Origin: a candidate division WOR-3 bacterium | GTDB lineage: Bacteria > Hydrothermota > UBA3072 | Direction of reading: 5' to 3' | Assembly (NCBI GenBank): GCA_039804165.1 | Contig: JBDRZZ010000032.1 | Location: forward strand, 1 to 15,716 | DNA: 15,716 bases | Shown here: one piece after another, positions 166 to 12,461 of the stretch | Layout of the letters: each line of letters begins with the position of its first letter | Position numbering within the stretch: position 1 is the first letter of the stretch | Made by a program: the position numbers and the translations under genes | Notes under the pieces: generated by a model | Database searches by the model: none | Told to the model about the DNA's origin: nothing | What the model saw: only the letters and a program-made list of their open reading frames with translations

Positions 166-200
166 TTTTATTCTGCTCCCTAAAATAGATAGTTTTGCCA

Positions 201-208
201 AAAGGAGG
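201..208 (+). promoter_or_regulatory. Ribosome binding site that fixes the moxR start
   Basis: AAAGGAGG is followed four bases later by ATG at 213. An in-frame TTG at 195 would give a longer protein but would put the ribosome site inside the coding region, so the ATG at 213 is the better start. Confidence 0.85.
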
Positions 209-212
209 TAAA

Positions 213-1202
213 ATGAGTATAGATTTGCAAAGCCTTAATGCTGAAGCAAAAGAGAAAAGTGCTGTAATTGAGACCTTACTTGCAGAGATTGGTAAATCTA
301 TTATTGGGCAAAGAGAAATAATAGAGAAAACTATAATTGGGCTTCTAACAAGAGGGCACATTCTAATAGAAGGTGTGCCGGGTCTTGCTAAAACTTATAT
401 AGTTAAAACCCTTGCAACAGCGGTTAACGCAAGTTTTAAGAGAATCCAATTTACCCCAGATCTTTTACCAGCTGATATAACAGGAACTCAGATATATAAC
501 CAGAAAACAGGAGAATTTACTCCGAAAAAGGGTCCTTTATTTGCAAATTTTATTCTTGCTGATGAGATAAATAGAGCTCCTCCAAAGGTTCAAAGTGCTT
601 TGCTTGAAGCAATGCAAGAAAGGCAGGTAACAATTGGAGATGAAACTTATTCACTTCCAGATCCGTTTATGGTTCTTGCTACTCAGAACCCAATTGAACA
701 AGAAGGAACATATCCTCTTCCCGAGGCTCAAGTAGATAGATTTAAACAGAAACTCATAATTACTTATCCCAATAAAGAAGAAGAAAAGAAAATAGTTGAT
801 CAACAAACACAAGAAAAACTACCTATAACAAAGCCTGTAATGGACTTGAAAGATTTAAATGCTCTTAGGGAGTTCATTTATAAAATACATGTGGATGAAA
901 AGATAAAGGACTATATTGTGAATATAGTTTTTGCAACAAGGAATCCTTCTGAATACGGAGTTAAGGATCTTGAAGTTTATATTAGATATGGAGCTTCTCC
1001 GAGAGCTTCAATTTATCTCTATGAGGCAGCAAGAGCCCACGCTTTTTTACAAAGGAGGGGTTTTGTGATACCTGAAGACGTTAAAGCTGTGGTTTATGAT
1101 ATTCTTCGTCATAGAATAATATTATCCTATGAAGCTGAGGCTGAGGGAATAAAAGGAGAAGATATAATAAGAGAAATTCTGGAAGCTGTTGAAATACCAT
1201 AA
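213..1202 (+). CDS. moxR: MoxR-family AAA+ ATPase
   Basis: Cytoplasmic AAA+ ATPase of 329 residues, normal length for MoxR. Members are thought to act as chaperones that use ATP to activate or assemble von Willebrand factor A proteins encoded next to them, as here with BatA and BatB. Numbering from the ATG at 213, Walker A is GVPGLAKT (54-61), Walker B is FILADEINRAP (113-123), sensor 1 is ATQNP (156-160), the arginine-finger region is PEAQVDRF (170-177) and sensor 2 is GASPRA (260-265). All key ATPase residues are present, so the enzyme should be active. It is the first gene of a nine-gene plus-strand unit and is followed after 5 bases by the DUF58 gene, its usual partner. An in-frame TTG 18 bases upstream is not a likely start. 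The family call is secure; the exact client is inferred from context. Confidence 0.96.
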   Translation: MSIDLQSLNAEAKEKSAVIETLLAEIGKSIIGQREIIEKTIIGLLTRGHILIEGVPGLAKTYIVKTLATAVNASFKRIQFTPDLLPADITGTQIYNQKTGEFTPKKGPLFANFILADEINRAPPKVQSALLEAMQERQVTIGDETYSLPDPFMVLATQNPIEQEGTYPLPEAQVDRFKQKLIITYPNKEEEKKIVDQQTQEKLPITKPVMDLKDLNALREFIYKIHVDEKIKDYIVNIVFATRNPSEYGVKDLEVYIRYGASPRASIYLYEAARAHAFLQRRGFVIPEDVKAVVYDILRHRIILSYEAEAEGIKGEDIIREILEAVEIP

Positions 1203-1207
1203 ATTTT

Positions 1208-2092
1208 ATGGAAGAGAGAATCAAAAAGATTCTTAAGGAAGTCAGAGTAATTGAAATAGAGTCCAAGAAGGTAGTTAACACCCTTTTTAGTGGTGAATAT
1301 AAAAGCTCTTTTAAGGGTAAGGGGATGGAATTCCATGAGGTTAGGGAATATTTCCCGGGAGACGATATAAGGACTATCGATTGGAATGTTACCGCAAGGA
1401 TGAATCATCCTTTTGTGAAGAGATTTATAGAGGAAAGAGAATTAACTATTTTCATAATTACAGACTGTAGCGGATCTGAAGAATTTGGGACAAAGAAAGA
1501 AAAGAAAAAAGATCTTATAGCAAGAATAGCTGCTCTTTTTGCTTTCTCTGCTGAGAGAAATAATGATAAAGTTGGACTCCTTCTATTTTCAGATAAAGTT
1601 GAACATTATCTTCCCCCGGGCAAAGGAAGTATGCATACTCTCCATTTGATTCGCGATATCTTGCTTTTTTCCCCCACTAGTCTTAAAACCGATCCTGTCC
1701 CTGCAATGGAATTTTCTCAGGGCGTTCTACGTCATGGTTCTATTGTTTTATTTATATCCGACTTTATAGGAGAAAAATTCAATGTTGAGCATATTAGATT
1801 GCCTCTTTCTCTAATGGCTAAGAAATTTGATTTCATTCCTGTTATAGTTCGAGATCCTCTTGAGTTTGATTTTAAAATAAAAGGAAGGGTTATCCTTCGT
1901 GATGGAGAAACGGGAAAGGAATTTATGTTCGACGGAAAAGAACTCTCTGAGAAGTTTAAGGAAATAAGAAAAGCAAGGGATGAGGAGCTTTATCGTTTAT
2001 TCAATATAAATGGTCTTGATCGATTAGAGATAGGAACAGGTGAAGACTACGTAGGAGCTATTCACCAATTTTTCCAAATGAGATTACCATGA
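1208..2092 (+). CDS. DUF58 domain protein, MoxR partner
   Basis: Protein of 294 residues with the DUF58 signature at about 38-64: GMEFHEVREYFPGDD followed by IRTIDWNVTAR. A von Willebrand A-like fold follows, with the first metal-site motif as DCSGS (D86, S88, S90). No membrane segment is evident, which suggests a cytoplasmic protein. DUF58 proteins are nearly always next to moxR and are thought to bridge the ATPase and the membrane VWA proteins, though no biochemical activity is established. The ATG lies 5 bases after the moxR stop with no clear ribosome site, so translation is probably coupled to moxR. Its TGA overlaps the next gene's ATG (ATGA, 2089-2092). Family assignment is firm; the role is contextual. 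Confidence 0.94.
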   Translation: MEERIKKILKEVRVIEIESKKVVNTLFSGEYKSSFKGKGMEFHEVREYFPGDDIRTIDWNVTARMNHPFVKRFIEERELTIFIITDCSGSEEFGTKKEKKKDLIARIAALFAFSAERNNDKVGLLLFSDKVEHYLPPGKGSMHTLHLIRDILLFSPTSLKTDPVPAMEFSQGVLRHGSIVLFISDFIGEKFNVEHIRLPLSLMAKKFDFIPVIVRDPLEFDFKIKGRVILRDGETGKEFMFDGKELSEKFKEIRKARDEELYRLFNINGLDRLEIGTGEDYVGAIHQFFQMRLP

Positions 2093-2877
2093 TTTTTCTT
2101 TTATTGTTTTATGCTTTATCTATGGAGATAAAACCTGATTCTTCCACGGTTGGAGATTCTTTGACTCTTAAAATAAGAGGAAGGCTCCCAGATTCTATTT
2201 CGATTATTCTTCCAGATTCCTTCCCAGATATTTTAGTTCTTAATCCCATAAAAAAAATAAATGATACTTTAGCAATAGGTAAAATTGTCTCTTTCTCAAC
2301 AGGCTCGCAAGATTTGAAGTTGAAGATTAATGAAGATACTTTAAAACTCTCTTATTTTGTGAAATCAGTGCTTACTGAAAATAAGAATTTATCACCAATA
2401 TGGGGGCCTTATGGGTTTTTCAACTGGCTTTATTTACTTTGGCTTCTCATTATTCCTTTTGGTTTAGGTTTTTATTTCTTTGTGAAACTTAAGAAAAAGG
2501 AAGAAGGTCTTATTGAAAAAGAAGAAATATCACCAAAAGAAGAAGCCTTAAAAAACTTGGAATTTCTTATGGGAAAGGTAAATGATTGGGATTGGAATAA
2601 ACTTTATACTTCCCTATCTTATATTTCAAGAAGATATATGGAAAGAAAGTTAAATATTCCTGCTGTAGAAGCAACAACTTCTGAACTAATACCCTTAATA
2701 AAAAAGGGCGGATATACTCCATTTTTTCCTCTAATAAAGGAATTTCCTGAATGGGATTTAATAAAATTTGCTGATGAGAAATCTACTCCTCAAGAATTCG
2801 AGAATGATGTTCTCTTAGTAAAAACTGCAATTTTAGAGATAGAAAAGGAAGAGGAGAGAAATGATTCATTTTCATAA
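2089..2877 (+). CDS. Bat-operon membrane protein, N-terminal beta domain and C-terminal helical domain (DUF4381/BatD-like)
   Basis: Protein of 262 residues that occupies the slot between DUF58 and batA where many Bat operons carry a poorly characterised membrane protein. It begins with a short hydrophobic stretch (residues 2-11) that looks like a signal or anchor. Next come about 95 beta-rich residues likely outside the membrane, one transmembrane segment at about 111-133, and a charged cytoplasmic tail. The tail includes a Lys/Glu-rich linker (134-155) and a helical region (about 155-255) containing SYISRRYMERKLNI. The layout is a miniature of BatD. It overlaps the upstream gene by 4 bases and batA by 17. 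The DUF4381-like label rests on architecture and position, and I could not confirm it by profile search. Confidence 0.85.
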   Translation: MIFLLLFYALSMEIKPDSSTVGDSLTLKIRGRLPDSISIILPDSFPDILVLNPIKKINDTLAIGKIVSFSTGSQDLKLKINEDTLKLSYFVKSVLTENKNLSPIWGPYGFFNWLYLLWLLIIPFGLGFYFFVKLKKKEEGLIEKEEISPKEEALKNLEFLMGKVNDWDWNKLYTSLSYISRRYMERKLNIPAVEATTSELIPLIKKGGYTPFFPLIKEFPEWDLIKFADEKSTPQEFENDVLLVKTAILEIEKEEERNDSFS

Positions 2878-3832
2878 TCCATTTTATTTGTTTGGTCTTG
2901 GTTTATTGCCTTTAATTTATTTTTTAAAGAAGAGGATAAAAGAGGCTTCTATTCTATATTCTGACACTTCTTCTTTAGGAGTTAAACCTTTAGGTGAGGT
3001 TTTTATTAGGTTAAGGGATTATTTAATCTTGGGTATTATTGGTTTTATTTTTATTGGTCTTGCCAGACCAGAAAGAGGATATGAAACGGAAATTGTTCAG
3101 AAAGAAGGAATTGATATTGTGCTTGTTCTGGATATCTCAGGTTCTATGAGGGCTGTGGATTTTACTCCAAATCGTTTAGAAGTAGCAAAAAATCTTGCAA
3201 TGGAGTTTGTGGACGGAAGGGAGGGAGATAGAATAGGGCTCGTTGTTTATGCAAGAGAAGCTTTGATTCAGTCTCCTCTAACCCTTGATCATGATTTGGT
3301 AAAAGAGCAGATAAATTCTCTTAGATTTGATCTTCTCCCTGATGGAACAGCGATAGGGATGGGGATCACTTATGGGAGTTTTCTTCTTTCTAATTCAAAA
3401 GGTGAAAGTAAAGTGATGGTTCTTCTTACAGATGGAATAAATAATGCGGGTAATATTGATCCAGAAACTGCAGCGAAAGATGCTCTTGCGAAAGGAATAA
3501 AAATTTATTCAATTGGGATTGGGGAAAGGGGGGAAGTTCCATATCCTGTTTTAGATGCTTTTGGAATTACAAGATATGTTAATGTTAATCTTGAAATTAA
3601 TGAGGAGCTTCTAACAAAAATTTCTGATGAGACAGGTGGTAAGTATTTTCGAGCAACCTCTAAAGAGGCTCTTAAAGAAATATATAATACAATTGATAAG
3701 ATGGAAAAAACAACTTTTAAAGTTGAACGATTTACAAAATATAAAGAGAAGCTTAGCTTTGCTTTAGTCCCTGCAATCTTTCTTTTTATTATTCTTTTTT
3801 TAGAACCTTTTATTATTGGGAGGGTTCCATGA
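2861..3832 (+). CDS. batA: BatA, membrane-anchored von Willebrand factor A protein
   Basis: Protein of 323 residues. An N-terminal membrane segment (about 8-22, preceded by the typical Phe-x-Asn-Pro start) and a second at 53-68 precede a VWA domain (about 84-275). A C-terminal segment lies at 298-317. The metal-ion-dependent adhesion site is complete: DISGS (D91, S93, S95), Thr163 in DGTAIG and Asp191 in LLTDG. It should therefore bind Mg2+ and a partner protein. BatA and BatB are known as paired VWA proteins of the Bacteroides aerotolerance operon, and Bat proteins are generally held to form an envelope complex. The start lies inside the preceding gene (17-base overlap), with GAGGAGAG just upstream. 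Its stop overlaps batB by 4 bases. Choosing batA over batB rests on gene order. Confidence 0.92.
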   Translation: MIHFHNPFYLFGLGLLPLIYFLKKRIKEASILYSDTSSLGVKPLGEVFIRLRDYLILGIIGFIFIGLARPERGYETEIVQKEGIDIVLVLDISGSMRAVDFTPNRLEVAKNLAMEFVDGREGDRIGLVVYAREALIQSPLTLDHDLVKEQINSLRFDLLPDGTAIGMGITYGSFLLSNSKGESKVMVLLTDGINNAGNIDPETAAKDALAKGIKIYSIGIGERGEVPYPVLDAFGITRYVNVNLEINEELLTKISDETGGKYFRATSKEALKEIYNTIDKMEKTTFKVERFTKYKEKLSFALVPAIFLFIILFLEPFIIGRVP

Positions 3833-4821
3833 ATTGGGCTTCACCAATATATTTGAATTTACTATGGCTATTACCTTTATTTATGATGCTCCTTTTATAT
3901 AGGAAAAGGAGAAATAAAAAATTGATTAACGCCTTAGTCTTAACAAAAGAGTTGAGACAAGTTATATGGAAAGAAGACCTAAAGAATTCTTTATGGAGGG
4001 AAATTCTATTAATTGTTTCTTTTGCATTTCTCGTTCTTTCGGCAGCAAGGCCAAGATGGGGAAAAAAATTATACATTTCTCGGATGGAGGGATATAATAT
4101 TATCTTTGTGTTAGATGCTTCCTCTAGTATGCTCGCTCAGGATGTAAAAGGAGGTCGTTTAAATAAGGCAAAGGAGGCGATAAAAACTTCAATTACTCAG
4201 CTTCCTGGAAGTCGTTTTGGTCTTGTTGCTTTTTCAGGAGAAGCGTATAAATTGTGTCCTTTAACTACAGATGTTGAAACCTTTAGACTTTTTGTGGATC
4301 TCGTTGAGCCTTCTCTTATCCCAACAGAAGGAACAGATATTGGAGGTGGTATAAGGAAGGCTATTGAACTTTTCCCAGAAAAAATTAGTGGGTCTAAAAT
4401 TATTATAGTAGTTACAGATGGAGAAAATACAAGAGGGGATCCAAGAGTAGATGCTTTGGAAGCAAGAAAAAGAGGAATAAAGGTGTTTACAATATCAGCT
4501 GGGACAAAAGAAGGAGCTCCAATCCCAAAATATGATTCAACAGGTAAATTTATAGAATATCTTAAGGATGATAATGGTAAAATCCATATATCTATTGTAA
4601 ACCAAGATTTGCTTAAACTTATTGCAAATGCTGGAGGAGGAGAATTTTTGGAAGGAGAAGGAGTTGAACTTGGCCTTTTAACAAGACTTTTTAGAGACCT
4701 TGAGAGAGGGAAGTTTTCTTCAGAAAAGGTTGAAACTTATGAAGAAAAGTTCATTTTCTTTCTAATCCCTTCTCTTTTATCTCTCTTACTCGCTAATTTT
4801 ATAAAAACTGGGAGGGAGTGA
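3829..4821 (+). CDS. batB: BatB, membrane-anchored von Willebrand factor A protein
   Basis: Second VWA protein, 330 residues, homologous in layout to the gene before it: membrane segments at about 8-24 and 58-73, a VWA domain from about 90 to 290, and a C-terminal membrane segment at about 307-325. The adhesion site is intact: DASSS (D96, S98, S100), Thr169 in TEGTD and Asp197 in VVTDGEN. It probably pairs with BatA in the cell envelope as a MoxR client. Compared with BatA it carries an insertion around 225-258 rich in Lys, Asp and Gly, typical of BatB. The start is an ATGA overlap with batA and has GGGAGGG (3818-3824) as ribosome site. Confidence 0.92.
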   Translation: MNWASPIYLNLLWLLPLFMMLLLYRKRRNKKLINALVLTKELRQVIWKEDLKNSLWREILLIVSFAFLVLSAARPRWGKKLYISRMEGYNIIFVLDASSSMLAQDVKGGRLNKAKEAIKTSITQLPGSRFGLVAFSGEAYKLCPLTTDVETFRLFVDLVEPSLIPTEGTDIGGGIRKAIELFPEKISGSKIIIVVTDGENTRGDPRVDALEARKRGIKVFTISAGTKEGAPIPKYDSTGKFIEYLKDDNGKIHISIVNQDLLKLIANAGGGEFLEGEGVELGLLTRLFRDLERGKFSSEKVETYEEKFIFFLIPSLLSLLLANFIKTGRE

Positions 4822-4822
4822 T

Positions 4823-5386
4823 ATGCTTTTTTATTTTTTGATTGCCTTAAATATATCTCCTTTAGTGAATAAAGCTAATAAGCTTTATAAGAGAGAGAAA
4901 TATGAAGAAGCTTATAAACTTTATAAAAAGGCTTCTATTCTTAATCCTAAGAATGAAAAGATAAAATTCAATTTTGCAGATTGTGCTTTTGAATTAAAAA
5001 GATTTAGAGAAGCTGGAGATGAATTTGCAAGGCTAGTAACCTCTAAGGATAAAGACCTAAGAGAAAAAAGCTTCTATAATCTTGGGAATGTGTTTATGGA
5101 AGCTAAGCAATATGATGATGCTATATCTGCTTATAAGAATGCTCTTTTGTTGAATCCAAAAGACATTAGGGCAAAAAGGAATCTTGAGATAGCTAAGATG
5201 ATGAAGAAAGAGGAAAAAGGAAAAAGTAAGGAGAAAGAAGAAAAAAAGGAAAAACAAGAACAGAAAAGGGAGCTACAACCTATTCCTCAATATAAAATGA
5301 ATGAAGCTTTGAAAAATGAGCAAAAAGAAACAATGAAGAAAGCTTTAAAGATGGGAAGGAGAGAGGAGGATGCAGGGAAATGGTGA
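4823..5386 (+). CDS. batC: BatC-like TPR protein
   Basis: Protein of 187 residues with a short hydrophobic N-terminus (2-11), about three TPR-like helical repeats (roughly 15-48, 49-82 and 83-116), then a Lys/Glu-rich, probably coiled or disordered stretch (127-150). The conserved C-terminal segment includes MNEALKNEQKETMKKAL and ends Gly-Lys-Trp, close to the charged ending with a final Trp that I recall in BatC proteins. TPR repeats are protein-interaction modules, here probably inside the Bat complex. The ribosome site GGGAGGGA lies over the end of batB and the ATG follows one base after the batB stop. Its end overlaps batD by 7 bases (ATGGTGA). The TPR call is strong; the batC name rests on order and C-terminus. 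Confidence 0.87.
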   Translation: MLFYFLIALNISPLVNKANKLYKREKYEEAYKLYKKASILNPKNEKIKFNFADCAFELKRFREAGDEFARLVTSKDKDLREKSFYNLGNVFMEAKQYDDAISAYKNALLLNPKDIRAKRNLEIAKMMKKEEKGKSKEKEEKKEKQEQKRELQPIPQYKMNEALKNEQKETMKKALKMGRREEDAGKW

Positions 5387-7086
5387 TTTTACTTCTTATT
5401 TGCCTTACTTTTACAGCTTCTATTGATAAAACTATTGTGTTTGTTGGGGAGCCTTTTACTGTTAGTGTTTATATTGAAGGAGAGGACCTTGAGGGAGTTG
5501 GTGCCCCAAGACCTCCTTCGGTTTCTGGAATTGATATTCTTGGCTCATCAAGATCTCAATCCACTCAAATTAATTTTATAAATGGAAAAATTTCAAAATC
5601 TACAACCTTAAGGTTTGATTACCAGATGATTGCTAGTTCTGAAGGAGAATATACTATACCTCCTTTCACTTTAACATATAAAGGAGAAAAATACTCTACA
5701 GAGCCAATAAAAATAAATGTTAAAAAGGGGACTCCTCAACCTCAAAAACCTCAAAGGGTTACCCCTTCTCAACCAGAGAGAAAAATTTCTCCATCTATTT
5801 CAGGTTATGAAGATGTCTTTTTAGATTGCGAGGTCTCAAAAGGTTCTGTTTATCCTGGAGAGCCTTTAATAGTCAATCATTATCTTTATACGAGGGTAAA
5901 CCTTACTAATATTCAGCTAATTAATTCCCCAAGTTATGAAAATGCTTGGGTAGAAAATCTTCAGACTCCAACAAGATTGGAATTCTCCAGAACTTCTATT
6001 GGTGGGGTTGGGTATTCAAGAGCTTTAATTAAAAGAGATCTTATTTTTCCTCTCGGAGAAAAAGACATTCAAATCAATCCGGCATCTATGGAGGTTTATG
6101 TTAGAGGAGACTTTTTCTCATTCTTTGATGAAAGGAGAATAATTTCTTCAGAACCAAAAACGATAAAGATAAAATCTTTTCCTTCTGATCGTCCTTCTGA
6201 ATTTATTGATGCCGTTGGCAAATTCAGTTTTTCAGCAGAACTTGATACAGGAGAAGTGAAGGTTGATGCTCCTTTTTCTTTTAAGATAATAATAAAAGGG
6301 GAAGGGAATATAAATCTTTTATCTCCACCAGAAATTCCCTCTTCAAGAAAATTCGACGTATATCCTCCAGAATCAAAAGTAAATTCAAGCATTTCAGGAG
6401 GAACTTTAAAAGGGGAGAGAGTATTTACTTATCTTCTTACTCCTAAGGTTTCTGGTCTGGTTGAAATTCCAGAGATAAAGTGGGCTTATTTTGATTCAAA
6501 AACTGAAACTTTTATAAGAAAAACAATTGGTCCTTGGAGAATTCAAGTGAAATCTGTAGGAGAAAGCGAAAAAGAAATTGTAACAAGTAAAATTAGTGAG
6601 GATATTTCTTATGTTTTACCTGTTCCAATGAAAAAAGTTTATTTAATTCCTCCTTATCTTTTCCTATATTTTTTACCTTCTTTTATAGTTCTTCTATTGA
6701 CTTCCTACTATGTTTGGGAGAAAAAGAAAATAGAAGGTGATCGTAGTTATGCAAGGGTGAAGGCAATCCCTAAAGAATTAAAAAAGGGGTTTATAAAATT
6801 AGAAAGAGAAAAAGCAAAAGGAGAGATGAGAGCTTTCTATGAAGAACTCTCCAGGGTTCTTCTTAAATTTCTAAAATTAAAATTTAATATAGATGTATTT
6901 GGAATGAAAAAAGAAGAAATTGCTAAAGAGCTACGGAGTAAAGATGTTACTGAAGAGGTTGTGGCTTCTCTCCTTGGAATTCTTGAGAAAAGCGAAATGG
7001 TTCGTTTTACTTCTTTTAAACCTAAAGAGGATGAGATTAGTAGGGATTTAAAAACTTTAAAAGAGGTGATTAATGCTTTATATTAG
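5380..7086 (+). CDS. batD: BatD, large beta-rich membrane protein
   Basis: Protein of 568 residues, typical BatD length. A signal-like N-terminus (2-14) leads into several Ig-like beta domains outside the membrane. The first contains the recurrent features GEPF and GVGAPRPPSVSGIDILG, with YTIPPFTLTY closing it. A Pro/Gln-rich linker lies at about 117-137 and further beta domains run to about 400. One membrane segment at about 424-447 is followed by a basic helical cytoplasmic tail to 568. BatD proteins are essential parts of Bat loci but have no known enzymatic activity. GAGGAGGA (about 5363-5370) is the ribosome site. It overlaps batC by 7 bases and batE by 14. Confidence 0.91.
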   Translation: MVILLLICLTFTASIDKTIVFVGEPFTVSVYIEGEDLEGVGAPRPPSVSGIDILGSSRSQSTQINFINGKISKSTTLRFDYQMIASSEGEYTIPPFTLTYKGEKYSTEPIKINVKKGTPQPQKPQRVTPSQPERKISPSISGYEDVFLDCEVSKGSVYPGEPLIVNHYLYTRVNLTNIQLINSPSYENAWVENLQTPTRLEFSRTSIGGVGYSRALIKRDLIFPLGEKDIQINPASMEVYVRGDFFSFFDERRIISSEPKTIKIKSFPSDRPSEFIDAVGKFSFSAELDTGEVKVDAPFSFKIIIKGEGNINLLSPPEIPSSRKFDVYPPESKVNSSISGGTLKGERVFTYLLTPKVSGLVEIPEIKWAYFDSKTETFIRKTIGPWRIQVKSVGESEKEIVTSKISEDISYVLPVPMKKVYLIPPYLFLYFLPSFIVLLLTSYYVWEKKKIEGDRSYARVKAIPKELKKGFIKLEREKAKGEMRAFYEELSRVLLKFLKLKFNIDVFGMKKEEIAKELRSKDVTEEVVASLLGILEKSEMVRFTSFKPKEDEISRDLKTLKEVINALY

Positions 7087-7780
7087 TTTATTTCTCTTTT
7101 TCTTAGGGGAAGTTCAAAAAACCGCAGAGGAATATTACAGAAATGGAGAATATGAAGAGGCTCTTCAGGAATATAAAAAGTATCTTGAGAAAGGAATTGT
7201 GAATCCTGAATTATATTTGAATATAGGGAATTGCTATTACAGAATGGGAGAGTTTGGGGAAAGTCTTCTATATTATAGGAGAGGATGGTTTCTTTCTCCA
7301 GGGAATAAAAATATAAAACATAATATTTATTTAATTGCAAAAAGGGAAGAGACTCCGAATCCATTCTTTTCTTTTTTTAGGGGTTTGATTGATAGAATAT
7401 CTCTAAGAACTTTTTCGTATCTTCTTGCTCTTTCTTTTAATCTACTTGTGGGAGTTCTTTCAATATGTCTTCTTCAAAGAGTGAAATTAATAAATTTTCC
7501 AACCTATCCTTTTCTTTTTATCACTGGATTTTTTTTTGTTTTTTCTCTTTTAGGTTTTTCTAGTTGGTATGGGAGAGTTAAATCTAACTGGCTTGTAATA
7601 ACAGAAACCACAATAGCTTATAGTGGACCTGGTGAACAATTTAAAGAGCTTATGAGAGTGGAAGAGACGGAGGAGGGGAATCTTATTAGGGAAGAAAATG
7701 GGTGGTGGTTAGTGCAATTTCAGGAAGGAGAAGGTGGGTGGATTGACTCAACCAAAGCTATGAGAGTGCTAAACAGATGA
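7073..7780 (+). CDS. batE: BatE-like protein: TPR, two membrane segments, SH3 domain
   Basis: Protein of 235 residues. A signal-like N-terminus (1-12) is followed by about two TPR units (15-82), a basic linker, two membrane segments (about 113-133 and 145-165), and a C-terminal bacterial SH3-like domain (about 172-232, with AYSGPGEQF and GWWLVQFQEGEGGWI). This TPR-membrane-SH3 order is the classical BatE layout. Bacterial SH3 domains often bind peptidoglycan or proteins, so the tail may touch the cell wall if it lies outside. It overlaps batD by 14 bases, with GAGGTGA (7061-7067) as ribosome site, and overlaps the next gene by 4 bases. Confidence 0.9.
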   Translation: MLYISLFLFFLGEVQKTAEEYYRNGEYEEALQEYKKYLEKGIVNPELYLNIGNCYYRMGEFGESLLYYRRGWFLSPGNKNIKHNIYLIAKREETPNPFFSFFRGLIDRISLRTFSYLLALSFNLLVGVLSICLLQRVKLINFPTYPFLFITGFFFVFSLLGFSSWYGRVKSNWLVITETTIAYSGPGEQFKELMRVEETEEGNLIREENGWWLVQFQEGEGGWIDSTKAMRVLNR

Positions 7781-8406
7781 AGAAGAGAATAATAGGGCTT
7801 TCCCTTTTTGCAGTTGTTTTTGGTTATTTAGAAGCAGATGTTGTCACATATCTTAGATATCTTTATTATGAAGATCCTAAAATCCTTTTTCCTCTAAAAA
7901 TGATGGATCCTGAAATTTTCGTCTTTGAAATCCTCCGAGAATTATCAACCCTTCTCATTATTACTTTAGTAAGTTATCTTTCTTCAAGGGAAAAAGAGGA
8001 AATTTTTTATCTCTGGATTTTTACTTTTGGAGTCTGGGATATATTTTATTATATTTTTCTATTTTTGATGATTAGGTGGCCAAGTTCTATTTTCTCTTTC
8101 GACCTTTTATTTTTGATCCCTTCTTTGTGGATTGCACCTATTATCTGTCCCATTCTTGTGTCTTTGGTTTTTATCTTGGGAGGTTTATATAATTTATTTA
8201 AGAAGAAAAGGAAGATGAAAATTAACCTTCTTCTCGGAATTTTTGGAGGAGTCTTAATTTTAATTTCCTTTCTTTATAAATCTTTAATTTTGAAAGATAA
8301 TATTGAGAAAGTGGCTTTCCCTTCTTCTATTAACCAATTCCCCTGGCAATTTTTCTTACCCGGTTTTTTTCTCCTTTCTCTTGCTCTTTTTATAAGAAAG
8401 AGATAA
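7777..8406 (+). CDS. Conserved multi-pass membrane protein of unknown function at the end of the Bat operon
   Basis: Protein of 209 residues with about six predicted membrane segments (roughly 5-27, 48-68, 75-97, 118-140, 149-170, 188-206). I recognise it as resembling a widespread uncharacterised membrane family from several motifs: GYLEADVVTYLRYLYY near the start, REL(S)T around 54-58, FGVWDIFYY (84-92), WPSS (101-104) and the DLLFLIPSLWIAPIICP stretch (109-125). Acidic residues sit within or near predicted membrane segments (E19, D21, E51, E55, D88, D109), which hints at an intramembrane active or ion-binding site rather than a passive anchor. The ATG overlaps the batE stop (ATGA, 7777-7780), so it is translated as part of the Bat unit. 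It is not a standard Bat protein. No function is assigned. Confidence 0.85.
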   Translation: MKKRIIGLSLFAVVFGYLEADVVTYLRYLYYEDPKILFPLKMMDPEIFVFEILRELSTLLIITLVSYLSSREKEEIFYLWIFTFGVWDIFYYIFLFLMIRWPSSIFSFDLLFLIPSLWIAPIICPILVSLVFILGGLYNLFKKKRKMKINLLLGIFGGVLILISFLYKSLILKDNIEKVAFPSSINQFPWQFFLPGFFLLSLALFIRKR

Positions 8407-8411
8407 AAACA

Positions 8412-10415
8412 TTATTTAATAAGTAACATTTTTTTAGACTCTTCAAAAGATTCACCGTCTCTCATTACTTTCAGCTTATAAATATAGAATCCGCTTGGAG
8501 CTTCCTTTCCATTATTTTGTATTCCATCCCAGCTACAAAAATGAGAGCCCGCTGTTTTTTCTTTCTCTTTTATAAGAGTCGCCACTTCTTCTCCTAAGAG
8601 GTTGTAGATAGAAAGCTGGACTCTAGAAGTTTTCGGGATTTCATATCTAATTGTGGTAGAGCTATTGAAAGGATTAGGGTAGTTTTGATATAAAATTGGT
8701 CTTCCAGCCAAGATCTTTTCTTCTTCAACACCTTGCGTAACTCCAAGAATTTGGACAAGTTCAATCCCATTACCAGTTCCAAGATTTCTTGAATACTGTT
8801 TATTAGTTGCGTTATTCCAATGTTCATGGACTCCAAGACTCCATGGCATTGGGGTCCCATCTCCTTCAGGATCGTAGATAAGACTGTCTGGCCAATTTGC
8901 TGAATCCGCAGCTTGGTGGAGGTAATCATCAACTCCTTCCATCTGAACATAGGTAAGACCGGGATGATTTGCCTGAGTATACTCGGCTCTCAAGAAATCA
9001 TAACCCACGGATTCAATTGCAACATTGTCTTGTGATATGAATATTGATGAGCTCCAGTCATTATTGAAAGGTTGAATTTTCCATTTGGTAGGTTTATCAA
9101 GTTCATGCCCTGCTGACCAGAGGGCGTCCATTAAAAATATCAAATTTTTTTCTCTAAATAACTCATAACCCATTAAATCAACCAAAACCCTATATAGACC
9201 ATATTCGTGTCTTTCATTTTCTGGATGTTTCCCAGGCTCATCTGGGGCAACAAGCCCCATATGGAGATGAACAGCATTAGACCGGACATGGGAACCGAAA
9301 TGATTTTTAGCAAAAAGAGTGACCCCTGCCCTTCTATGCCCTTTTAAAGTTGGAACATTTATCAAGTAATCACAATTCTCAAAGATTGTATAAAAGGTAT
9401 CTATATAGATTGGACCTCCGGAATCAGCATTTTGGAAAGACCCCTCTCGGAGGACTGCTCCACTATCAGAATAATGGATTATAGAGGATCCTTTCTGAAC
9501 CACCTCTCTTCCCCCATAATTTCTATCATGGTCAAGGTAGTGAATATTTGGAAATTCACTGTGCCATAGGTCATAATCATGATTGTAAAGATGCTTCATC
9601 GGGTCACCGATATAGATATACTGCTGGGGGACTCCCACTTCATATACAAGATGCCTTAAAAGAGATAAAACCAATTGAGGAGATGTTTCGGATACACCAT
9701 AACTACTCCCAATTGGTTCAAAGTTAGGCCCAATCTGATAAGAGCTGGTTCTATTGATTTTTATAAATATTATCTCACCTTCCTGATAACCAACTTCCCC
9801 TTTCCCTCTTTGAGAATTATTATATCGAAAGATTTTATCCCAAGCATCTTTAACATTATTTTCCCCTACAAGCACTTTTACAGCTGTATCTAACATTGCA
9901 TCTATAACATCTTGGTTATTATTCTTTGGGAGAAACCATCCATCACCTGTGGCTCCTGGATTGCAATTCTCATTCGTTGCATTTCGATCAAAAACCCACA
10001 CAACTCTTCCAGGGAAAATCCCTTTTGCCTCTCCCATAGGTTGATTCGGTGGCTCGAGCTGACTCACCTCGTAAGAAGGTCCTTGAGCAAAGGCAGACTT
10101 ATTTGTATGAAGAACAGCTACCGTTCCACTTATTATCCCCAGAAAGATAAGAACCCATCCAACAAGATATTTTGAATTTCTTAATTTTTCCTTTGCTTTT
10201 TTAATAGAAAAAATGGAAGCGAAAAGACTTGCTAAGTATACCATGAAAGTCCCTGCTGTTGGGATAGCAACCTTCATACAAGGGTAACGAAGTCTACTTG
10301 GTTTTGTCCCCACTCTTATAATTACCCAAACCAAAGAGAGAAATCCAAATAAAGGGAATAACATTGCAAGACCAATCTTTTTAACACGGTTTCTTATTTT
10401 TTTTATTTCCATCAT
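8412..10415 (-). CDS. DUF362 protein with N-terminal membrane segments and C-terminal sorting-type domain
   Basis: Protein of 667 residues in three parts. The N-terminus has about three membrane segments (13-35, 50-70, 84-102), with RYPC at 43-46 and a possible signal-peptidase site after AFA (108-110). The middle (about 130-520) resembles DUF362: a Lys-containing strand EIIFIKINR, a glycine-rich GVPQQYIYIGDP, and the hallmark NVPTLKGHRRAGVTLFAKN near 351-369. The C-terminus (574-667) starts NYPNPFN and ends KKMLLIK, an Ig-like domain of the FlgD/type IX sorting kind. DUF362 is of unknown activity. Some members carry 4Fe-4S clusters, but no ferredoxin-type cysteine motif is visible here. The protein probably acts at or outside the cell envelope. 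Two adjacent ATGs follow AGGAGG by 5 and 8 bases, and either could be the start. It stops 5 bases from the convergent plus-strand operon. Confidence 0.87.
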   Translation of the reverse strand: MMEIKKIRNRVKKIGLAMLFPLFGFLSLVWVIIRVGTKPSRLRYPCMKVAIPTAGTFMVYLASLFASIFSIKKAKEKLRNSKYLVGWVLIFLGIISGTVAVLHTNKSAFAQGPSYEVSQLEPPNQPMGEAKGIFPGRVVWVFDRNATNENCNPGATGDGWFLPKNNNQDVIDAMLDTAVKVLVGENNVKDAWDKIFRYNNSQRGKGEVGYQEGEIIFIKINRTSSYQIGPNFEPIGSSYGVSETSPQLVLSLLRHLVYEVGVPQQYIYIGDPMKHLYNHDYDLWHSEFPNIHYLDHDRNYGGREVVQKGSSIIHYSDSGAVLREGSFQNADSGGPIYIDTFYTIFENCDYLINVPTLKGHRRAGVTLFAKNHFGSHVRSNAVHLHMGLVAPDEPGKHPENERHEYGLYRVLVDLMGYELFREKNLIFLMDALWSAGHELDKPTKWKIQPFNNDWSSSIFISQDNVAIESVGYDFLRAEYTQANHPGLTYVQMEGVDDYLHQAADSANWPDSLIYDPEGDGTPMPWSLGVHEHWNNATNKQYSRNLGTGNGIELVQILGVTQGVEEEKILAGRPILYQNYPNPFNSSTTIRYEIPKTSRVQLSIYNLLGEEVATLIKEKEKTAGSHFCSWDGIQNNGKEAPSGFYIYKLKVMRDGESFEESKKMLLIK

Positions 10416-10471: not shown

Positions 10472-12409
10472 TTAACTTGTTTTCTTCTTCTGGTTTTGGC
10501 CTCTTAATCGTTCTTCAGCAGCTTGAAGAATTCTTCTAAGCATCTCAGAATAAGAAAGCCCAGCTATTTTTGCCATCTTTGCAAGATGTCCATCCCAACA
10601 CCAACCAGGATTAGGATTAACTTCTAAGAGTTTTGGATTTTCTTTTTCATCAAGCCTCCAATCAAAGCGGGCATAATCTCTGCATTCAAGTCTTTCGAAC
10701 AACCTAAGACACCATTCTATTATAGATTGTTCCATCTCTTTAGGAAGATTGGCTTTTATAGATTTTATATTCCAATATGGAGAGTGAGGTAACCACTTTG
10801 CTTCATAACCACAAATTTTAGGGAGCTCTTTAGGAAGAGAAGAATAATCCTCCTCTATTATTGGTAGGACCATATAGGAATCCGGAGGATTCCCTATGAT
10901 TCCTACACTTAAGTCTTTTCCAGAAAGAAACTCTTCTACAAGGATGGGTTTATCATAACCGAATTTTTCTCTTATCTCTGAGATTGCGTTTGCGAGTTCC
11001 TCAAAGTTATTAACCACACTCCTTTGAGTTATTCCAAAACTTGAATCCCCAAAATTGGGTTTGACAAGAAAAGGGAATTCAAAGGGTAGTTCAAAAGTTG
11101 TATCCTCGGGTTTAACAAAAAATGCTTCTGGAACAGGTATCCCCATTTCTTTTGCAATTCCTCGAATGAGGGATTTATCATAACAGTGGGCAAGGCATTG
11201 AGGTCCGGCACCAGTATAAGGGATTTCTAAGATTTCTAAAAGAGCTGGAATATGAAGTTCTTTTCTTGGTTCGTTGTCATAACCTTCATCACATAAATTA
11301 AAAACGAAGGTATTTTTCTCTTTAAGCTTTAATAAATCAAAGATTAAAGTATCATGATTGTCTAAATAGGTAAACTGATATTCCTTAAGCTCTCTTAAGG
11401 CAGATTTCAGCTCGTCAATAGTATAGAAGTCATCATCATCAAAAATGCAGAAAGGTTTTAAGGGGTCAGCTTTACGTGGATCTCCTAAGATCACAACAAC
11501 ATTTTTAATAGCTTCCTTTTTTCTTACTGGTGTCCATTCTTTTTTCGCTATCGCTGTTAAAATAATTCGCTTTTCCATCATACCAAGATCTTGATTTCGG
11601 GTAGAAGTTGAATTAAGGCTCTCTTGAAATACAATGTTTCTGAAGTTTGCTAATTCAAGAAGTTCGTTTAAACTCTTCTTAGAATAAAGCCTTTCTGCGT
11701 AAAATTGATCCGCAATAACACCTTTTTCTATATGAGTAACAACCTCTCTTGAAATTAGCCGTTGTTTATCCAGAGAAAGGGAGCGCTCTCTACAAACGAA
11801 ATGTTTTTTATCTATCCATTCCCAATTTCTTGGATTAAAGTGTTTCCTAAGATATTCTCCATCTGCAACATCTATTAAAAGTTTACCCCAAGGTTTTAAA
11901 ACTCTTAGAATTTCCTTAAGAACTCTTAAGTCATCTTGAACTGTTTCAAAATAACCAAAACTATTTCCTAATAAAAGGACAATATCAAAACTATCAGGAG
12001 GATAGGGTAATTTTCTTGCATCCCCTTCTCTAAATCTAACATTCAAGAGTTCTTTTTTTGCTTGTGTTTTAGCTTTTTGGATTAAGTAATGTGAGCGGTC
12101 TATTCCTTCTACAAAATTAAAACCTCTTCTTGCTAATTCCAGAGAGTGCCGTCCTTGTCCACAGCATAAGTCTAAGATTTTATCTTCGGGAGAGAGTTTT
12201 AAAATTTCTATACAAAGATCAACTTCTTTTTTTGTGTTAGCGAGATTTTCTACAATATCACCGTCTGTTTTTAGATAAATTGAGTTAAAAATTAACCTCC
12301 ACCAATCTGAGTGGACATATTCTTCTAAATTAGAAACAGGCCCAAGTAATTTGACTTTCTGTCCATTTTCTCTTTGGGGAGGCTTTTCATCCGATACTTT
12401 TGCCTCCAT
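10472..12409 (-). CDS. Fusion of a SAM-dependent methyltransferase and a D-Ala-D-Ala-ligase-like ATP-grasp enzyme
   Basis: A single 645-residue frame holds two enzymes. Residues about 35-290 are a class I methyltransferase: SAM-binding motif I is ILDLCCGQGRHSLELA (78-93), the acidic residue is in EGID (101-104), and FDIVLLLGNSFGYF (141-154) and VLKPWGKLLIDV (170-181) follow. Residues about 300-630 are an ATP-grasp ligase of the D-Ala-D-Ala ligase type: FLVKPNFGDSSFGI (447-460), VEEFLSGKDLSVGIIG (491-506), GYEAKW (534-539), ARFDWR (580-585) and LLEVNPNPGW (594-603). The last of these supplies the Mg-binding Glu and Asn. The classical Ddl N-terminal motif GGxSxEHxVS is absent and GDPRKADPLKP stands at its place, so the substrate may not be D-alanine. 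The likely chemistry is ATP-dependent peptide-type bond formation with methylation of the substrate or product. The start follows AAGGAGG by 9 bases. Both domains look intact. Confidence 0.9.
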   Translation of the reverse strand: MEAKVSDEKPPQRENGQKVKLLGPVSNLEEYVHSDWWRLIFNSIYLKTDGDIVENLANTKKEVDLCIEILKLSPEDKILDLCCGQGRHSLELARRGFNFVEGIDRSHYLIQKAKTQAKKELLNVRFREGDARKLPYPPDSFDIVLLLGNSFGYFETVQDDLRVLKEILRVLKPWGKLLIDVADGEYLRKHFNPRNWEWIDKKHFVCRERSLSLDKQRLISREVVTHIEKGVIADQFYAERLYSKKSLNELLELANFRNIVFQESLNSTSTRNQDLGMMEKRIILTAIAKKEWTPVRKKEAIKNVVVILGDPRKADPLKPFCIFDDDDFYTIDELKSALRELKEYQFTYLDNHDTLIFDLLKLKEKNTFVFNLCDEGYDNEPRKELHIPALLEILEIPYTGAGPQCLAHCYDKSLIRGIAKEMGIPVPEAFFVKPEDTTFELPFEFPFLVKPNFGDSSFGITQRSVVNNFEELANAISEIREKFGYDKPILVEEFLSGKDLSVGIIGNPPDSYMVLPIIEEDYSSLPKELPKICGYEAKWLPHSPYWNIKSIKANLPKEMEQSIIEWCLRLFERLECRDYARFDWRLDEKENPKLLEVNPNPGWCWDGHLAKMAKIAGLSYSEMLRRILQAAEERLRGQNQKKKTS

Positions 12410-12418
12410 TTTTATTTA

Positions 12419-12425
12419 CCTCCTT
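12419..12425 (-). promoter_or_regulatory. Ribosome binding site of the methyltransferase/ATP-grasp fusion
   Basis: AAGGAGG on the minus strand lies 9 bases before the ATG at 12407-12409. It supports this start for the whole fusion, so the methyltransferase half is translated as part of the gene. Confidence 0.8.
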
Positions 12426-12433
12426 TTTATTTT

Positions 12434-12461
12434 ATAATAACAAATAATTTGAAAATGGCAA
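12434..12461 (-). promoter_or_regulatory. Candidate promoter of the methyltransferase/ATP-grasp gene
   Basis: On the minus strand TTGCCA (12456-12461, five of six) is followed after 16 bases by TATTAT (12434-12439, five of six). It lies in the 60-base gap after the alcohol dehydrogenase stop, so this gene can probably be transcribed separately from nnr and the dehydrogenase. Confidence 0.45.

Follow-up and report, generated by a model that had tools for sequence, protein, structure and literature searches.

A methyltransferase–ATP-grasp ligase fusion that recurs in anaerobic bacteria and archaea

A candidate division WOR-3 bacterium encodes a single protein in which a class I S-adenosylmethionine (SAM) methyltransferase is joined to an ATP-grasp ligase with the fold of D-Ala-D-Ala ligase (Ddl). 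The catalytic cores of both halves are conserved, the substrate motifs of Ddl are replaced, the protein occurs independently of D-Ala metabolism, and it has a genetic link to a deacylase. We propose that the fusion is a bifunctional enzyme that makes a small amino-acid metabolite carrying a methyl group and an amide link, and we give this proposal about an even chance of being right. We found no description of a methyltransferase–ATP-grasp fusion in the open-access literature. The parts are of known kinds; neither their combination nor its breadth or partner appears to have been described there.

The gene and its methyltransferase half

The gene (P0001) lies in a stretch of 15,716 nucleotides, which we will term the window. 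The original prediction placed one frame at positions 10472–12409, and this frame is real: it is open for 645 codons (645 amino acids) and has full-length homologs at 67–76% identity. It needs one correction, namely that it is on the minus strand, with the ATG at 12409 and the stop codon ending at 10472. (The other features of the fusion gene given below are also on the minus strand.) Direct reading of the sequence finds AGGAGG, which resembles a ribosome-binding site, at 12419–12424, nine bases upstream of the ATG. A pattern scan also found a promoter-like TTGCCA-16-TATTAT (12434–12461) in the gap between the fusion and the upstream gene, but this match is weak because such matches occur in this region at chance frequency. 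There is no sign of foreign base composition, as the GC3 of the methyltransferase half is that of the neighboring genes in the window.

Both of the domains that had been predicted for this frame scored above their Pfam cut-offs. The methyltransferase domain spans residues ~20–290 (11540–12352) and matches Methyltransf_25, Methyltransf_31, and Methyltransf_11 far above cut-off (for Methyltransf_25, PF13649, 76.5 bits at residues 78–175 against a cut-off of 27). It is a class I enzyme, with a Rossmann SAM-binding domain and motif I, DLCCGQGR (residues 80–87, 12149–12172), in which D80, C83, G84, G86, and R87 are invariant across 69 sequences. The half ends with NQDLGMM (residues 272–278, 11576–11596; Q273–M278 are invariant in the 69 sequences), a segment that is kept in a methyltransferase-only homolog and is missing from other free-standing methyltransferases. 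Genome G013 encodes an intact, free-standing methyltransferase half (65% identity) without the ligase half, so the two activities of the fusion may be separable. Among PDB profiles, this half best matches an unnamed putative methyltransferase, followed by small-molecule methyltransferases such as glycine sarcosine N-methyltransferase.

An AF2 model of the whole fusion protein has a pLDDT of 87.7, and within it the methyltransferase domain is mostly at 80–96. (When this half was modeled alone, the pLDDT was 33 and the model was unusable.) The pTM of the whole model is 0.57, and the predicted arrangement of the two domains relative to each other is uncertain.

The ligase half and the substrates of Ddl

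The ATP-grasp domain spans residues ~300–640 (10490–11512) and has the Ddl fold, as Dala_Dala_lig_C (PF07478) matches residues 420–629 with 102.5 bits against a cut-off of 24. Comparison with DdlB had been suggested as a check, and the modeled ligase half is indeed predicted to adopt that fold (Z of 28–30: 28.4 for DdlB, 8evz, and 29.7 for the D-Ala:D-lactate ligase 1ehi). Among PDB profiles, it matches Ddl and, less strongly, an L-amino acid ligase.

All four of the motifs named in the original prediction are present: GDPRKADPLKP (residues 309–319), GYEAKW (534–539), ARFDWR (580–585), and LLEVNPNPGW (594–603). Besides the fold, the fusion shares with Ddl (DdlB, VanA; PF07478, TIGR01205) the ATP-grasp core, the lysine of the omega loop, and the Arg, Asp, and Asn residues for metal and acceptor. 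The ATP and Mg residues, which were expected to be kept, are invariant in the aligned fusions. In the metal/acceptor segment ARFDWR (10655–10672), R581, D583, and R585 are invariant, and in GYEAKW (10793–10810), at the position of the omega loop, the invariant residues are G534, Y535, E536, K538, and W539. K538 corresponds to the Ddl lysine, but the tyrosine that was thought to be retained beside it is not there: its position is W539 in 83 of 83 aligned fusions.

The segments of Ddl that bind its substrates are replaced by other conserved segments. GDPRKADPLKP (11453–11485; G309, D310, D315, and P319 invariant) aligns with GGRSAEHEIS in the host's own Ddl, so that, as predicted, an alternative invariant motif stands where Ddl has GGxSxE for the first D-alanine. 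The acceptor site is replaced too. Where Ddl has NTxPGMTxxS (NTIPGFTKIS in the Ddl of the same genome), all of the aligned fusions have, save for minor variants, NPNPGWCWDGH (residues 598–608, 10586–10618; N598–G602 and W605–H608 invariant). Also, DEGYDN (residues 374–379, 11273–11290) is found at the position of Ddl's HGxxGE, and its D374, E375, G376, and N379 are invariant in the 83 fusions. Two divergent fusions (L130 and L131, 53% identity) lack GDPxKxDxxKP, which shows that the fusion architecture can do without this segment.

Given its fold and its ATP-binding core, the protein could be imagined to be a divergent cell-wall ligase that makes D-Ala-D-Ala (or D-Ala-D-X) and has an accessory methyltransferase, which Ddl itself does not have. 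We consider this very improbable. The fusion scores below all of the Ddl cut-offs listed (129.7 bits on NF002378, cut-off 243, and 128.5 bits on TIGR01205, cut-off 245.65), the substrate motifs are replaced, and the host genome encodes a separate, true Ddl (512.5 bits on NF002525, cut-off 457). Also, the fusion is carried by archaea that lack D-Ala metabolism: in the nine archaeal carriers that we tested, there was no Ddl above cut-off and no match to alanine racemase, while both searches were positive in bacterial controls. For these reasons the sequence is better read, as originally suggested, as that of a non-Ddl ligase with a different substrate, and the substrate pair is very probably not D-Ala and D-Ala. 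The invariant acidic residues (D310, D315, D326, D327, D374, E375, and D606) would suit a substrate with an extra positive charge.

Distribution, conservation, and neighboring genes

A search of 84,980 species genomes gave 467 matching stretches. The best 80 of the 467, which we fetched, are full-length fusions, 67–76% identical, from about 20 bacterial phyla and from archaea. The bacterial carriers include Aerophobetes, Atribacteria, Planctomycetes, Aminicenantes, Zixibacteria, Thermotogae, and Desulfonema magnum; the archaeal carriers are Methanophagales, Jordarchaeia, Altiarchaeota, and Nitrososphaeria. Because full-length fusions recur in separate public genomes, chance is excluded and so is an assembly error, which the original prediction had named as a way for two separate genes to appear joined. 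The genes that flank the fusion in Jordarchaeia and Altiarchaeota look archaeal by reading, so the archaeal loci are not all due to contaminated bins. Of 147 genomes from the window's own phylum, 14 have the fusion, whole or in large part, including a more divergent form at 52–53%. (We rejected genome G444 as an example of a fusion without its methyltransferase half, as the gene runs into a contig end. Also, near-identical fusion genes are found in MAGs labeled Methanophagales and Nitrosotalea, L051 and L052, which could be a recent transfer or a mis-binned contig.)

Conservation is equal in the two halves (median pairwise identity of 70% and 71%), and 116 columns are invariant in the alignment of 83 fusions. 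In close pairs, dN/dS is 0.03–0.13 in both halves, which indicates purifying selection. Given this combination of invariance and selection in the two halves, both active sites are probably in use. The distribution is patchy and star-like, so interdomain transfer is likely, but the tree does not prove it: tests did not reject a single archaeal clade (p-AU of 0.38), a single clade for the window's phylum (0.35), or a grouping of the window with its sister species G001 (0.81).

The check that had been proposed, a search for the same fusion and its gene neighbors across genomes, thus found that the fusion is widespread, but shared neighbors did not emerge. Across 83 loci, there is no recurring neighbor beyond generic families and no biosynthetic gene cluster, and in 29 sources we found no riboswitch or other RNA linked to the fusion. 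In the window, the gene order is Nnr, alcohol dehydrogenase (ADH), fusion, and a DUF362 protein with a T9SS-type tail. We rejected these neighbors as pathway partners: they are uninformative because the sister species has Nnr-ADH (at 72–73%) apart from its fusion, which is on another contig.

ATP-grasp ligases and methyltransferases are common in specialized-metabolite pathways, and together with the patchy distribution this might suggest that the fusion makes a peptide antibiotic, a siderophore, or something similar. However, the lack of a gene cluster in the 83 loci argues against this, as does the 60–70% identity across bacteria and archaea, which is unlike that of fast-changing specialized pathways. 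We regard a role in specialized metabolism as unlikely.

A patchy, solitary gene could also be a mobile anti-phage defense gene, and PADLOC reported a match to Mad2 (80 bits). But the fusions and the methyltransferase-only homolog score 65–83 bits on this model, compared to 75–87 bits for unrelated free-standing methyltransferases, and the matches span only the generic methyltransferase part. We therefore rejected membership in MADS Mad2. As we also found no fusion in viral contigs, phages, or plasmids, and recognized no defense neighbors, a defense role seems highly unlikely.

We noticed several other features of these loci. The DUF362 protein of the window (8412–10415) has hydrophobic N-terminal stretches and a C-terminal T9SS-type sorting tail, and G001 encodes four relatives of it, two of them in tandem. 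Positions 195–8406 of the window encode, on one strand, a MoxR ATPase, a DUF58 protein, two von Willebrand-type proteins, TPR proteins, and a BatD-like protein, which, judged from sequence reading alone, would be an operon of the aerotolerance (Bat) type. In the class of Desulfonema and in Aminicenantes, a sigma-54 response-regulator-type activator (one group, 50–65% identity) is found within a few kb of the fusion (L113:13163-14554, L182:9166-10572, L067:12016-13416, L076:5354-6754, and L179:9046-10080). In G072, a divergently oriented gene that resembles arginine dihydrolase or dimethylargininase (L131:8130-8969) adjoins the 53% divergent fusion. Finally, L032:6717-11097 has five tandem methyltransferase paralogs beside a formiminotransferase-cyclodeaminase.

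The deacylase partner and the proposed function

Of 389 genomes in the class that includes Desulfonema magnum, 14 have the fusion or a contig-end piece of one. An AstE/AspA-type deacylase is encoded by 7 of the 389, and all 7 are carriers of the fusion (hypergeometric P = 1.4e-11, uncorrected; this ignores relatedness, and some carriers are close relatives). In 6 of the 7, the deacylase is directly downstream of the fusion; in the seventh it is at a contig end, and the fusion of that genome is also near a contig end. In a bacterium of candidate division TA06, a 64% identical deacylase adjoins the fusion on its upstream side; the two genes are thus paired in either order. The motifs HGDE, DLH, and LE(L/M)GE are conserved in the deacylase, and its best NCBIfam name is DoeB, below threshold. 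It was not found in the 14 carriers from the window's phylum, and half of those in the Desulfonema class also lack it, so it is optional. As a genetic partner, the deacylase points to a small molecule with an amide link that is both made and hydrolyzed. Genome G379 has, after the fusion and the deacylase and on their strand, genes for an ATP-grasp–M20-type hydrolase fusion, a gamma-glutamyltranspeptidase (GGT), and an N-formylglutamate amidohydrolase. In G427, a relative of N-formylglutamate amidohydrolase is directly upstream of the fusion.

We propose that the N-terminal half would use SAM to methylate either an amino acid or the coupled product, and that the C-terminal half, which is Ddl-like but would hold other substrates in both of its sites, would convert a carboxylate to an acyl phosphate with ATP and join it to an amine. 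In some hosts, the neighboring zinc deacylase might cleave an amide of the same pathway, either for turnover or for deprotection. We infer that methylation and ligation act in one pathway, with the methyltransferase modifying the substrate or the product of the ligase. The product is presumably a small molecule, and the deacylase presumably acts in its pathway. It is conceivable, if rather doubtful, that what has been passed among anaerobic bacteria and archaea is nearly a one-gene pathway to an undescribed methylated dipeptide-like metabolite with a dedicated deacylase.

The nearest working analog in architecture is Ngg, the N-acetylglutaminylglutamine synthetase from the operon for the osmoprotectant NAGGN, whose peptide-bond-forming domain is an ATP-grasp. 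Ngg acetylates one glutamine and ligates it to a second, and the NAGGN operon includes an aminopeptidase gene (PMC8070244). Like the fusion, Ngg has an amino-group-modifying domain and a peptide-bond-forming domain in one polypeptide and, as in some hosts of the fusion, an amide hydrolase gene is alongside. Unlike the fusion, Ngg has an acetyltransferase instead of a methyltransferase; the fusion has no asparagine-synthase-like partner gene, and its ATP-grasp half is Ddl-like. By its domains, the fusion is not a member of the Ngg family, since it lacks the GNAT domain (there is no Pfam match to one in the protein). The best 25 of 80 NCBIfam matches to the fusion do not include the Ngg family. 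A role as a compatible solute, as for NAGGN, is one possibility for the product.

Alternatively, the target might be a macromolecule: the ATP-grasp would add an amino acid to a protein (or a tRNA), the methyltransferase would modify it, and the deacylase would remove the tag. The precedent is RimK/RimB, a glutamate ligase and protease that are a known example of a ligase-hydrolase pair spread by transfer (PMC11957791). The pairing of an ATP-grasp ligase with a hydrolase is similar, the fusion is a solo gene with no constant partner, and its uniform conservation across domains could mean a conserved macromolecular target. However, RimK belongs to another ATP-grasp family and acts on a protein, and RimB is a retropepsin-like protease rather than a zinc deacylase. 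The ligase half of the fusion is Ddl-like, with amino-acid ligases as its best PDB matches, and the named matches of the methyltransferase half are to small-molecule enzymes. Also, the fusion has no RNA- or peptide-binding domain, and its presence is patchy (14 of 147 and 14 of 389 genomes). Thus, we think that a RimK-like modifier is improbable, and we prefer a small-molecule product.

A nearly constant enzyme is common to deep-branching anaerobes of both domains, most of which are uncultured. The cultured Desulfonema magnum has both the fusion and the deacylase genes, and with one gene and one optional partner, the chemistry is directly testable in vitro. A solute or cofactor-like peptide as its product would account for part of the metabolome of subsurface communities that has gone unnoticed.

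Relatives of the ligase half occur alongside genes of amino-acid and peptide chemistry. The closest relatives that we saw (31–36% identity) are free-standing, tandem Ddl-like ATP-grasps. They share the AKW motif and, in part, the NPNP motif with the fusion, but they lack GDPxKxDxxKP and have no methyltransferase, and they are in a fixed operon with an aminomutase and an acetyltransferase. This operon, which is found in several genomes of the window's phylum (L026:6984-10614, L027:6753-10504, L028:8251-12022, and L030:7398-11158), encodes a KamA-family (lysine-2,3-aminomutase family) radical SAM aminomutase, two of the ATP-grasps, and a GNAT protein, and it looks like an uncharacterized pathway for a beta-amino-acid peptide or solute.

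A second relative (about 30% identity in the ligase) is the ATP-grasp–M20-type fusion of ~720 amino acids, which has a hydrolase-like domain in place of the methyltransferase. Of the 389 genomes in the Desulfonema class, 13 encode it, and its co-occurrence with the methyltransferase fusion is weak (3 of 13, uncorrected P = 0.009). It shares an operon with GGT and N-formylglutamate amidohydrolase in Desulfonema, in a related genome, and in a Methanophagales archaeon (L179:854-5331, L143:4107-8759, and L145:4741-9338). Another relative is on a Sinorhizobium plasmid, near a CapA gene.
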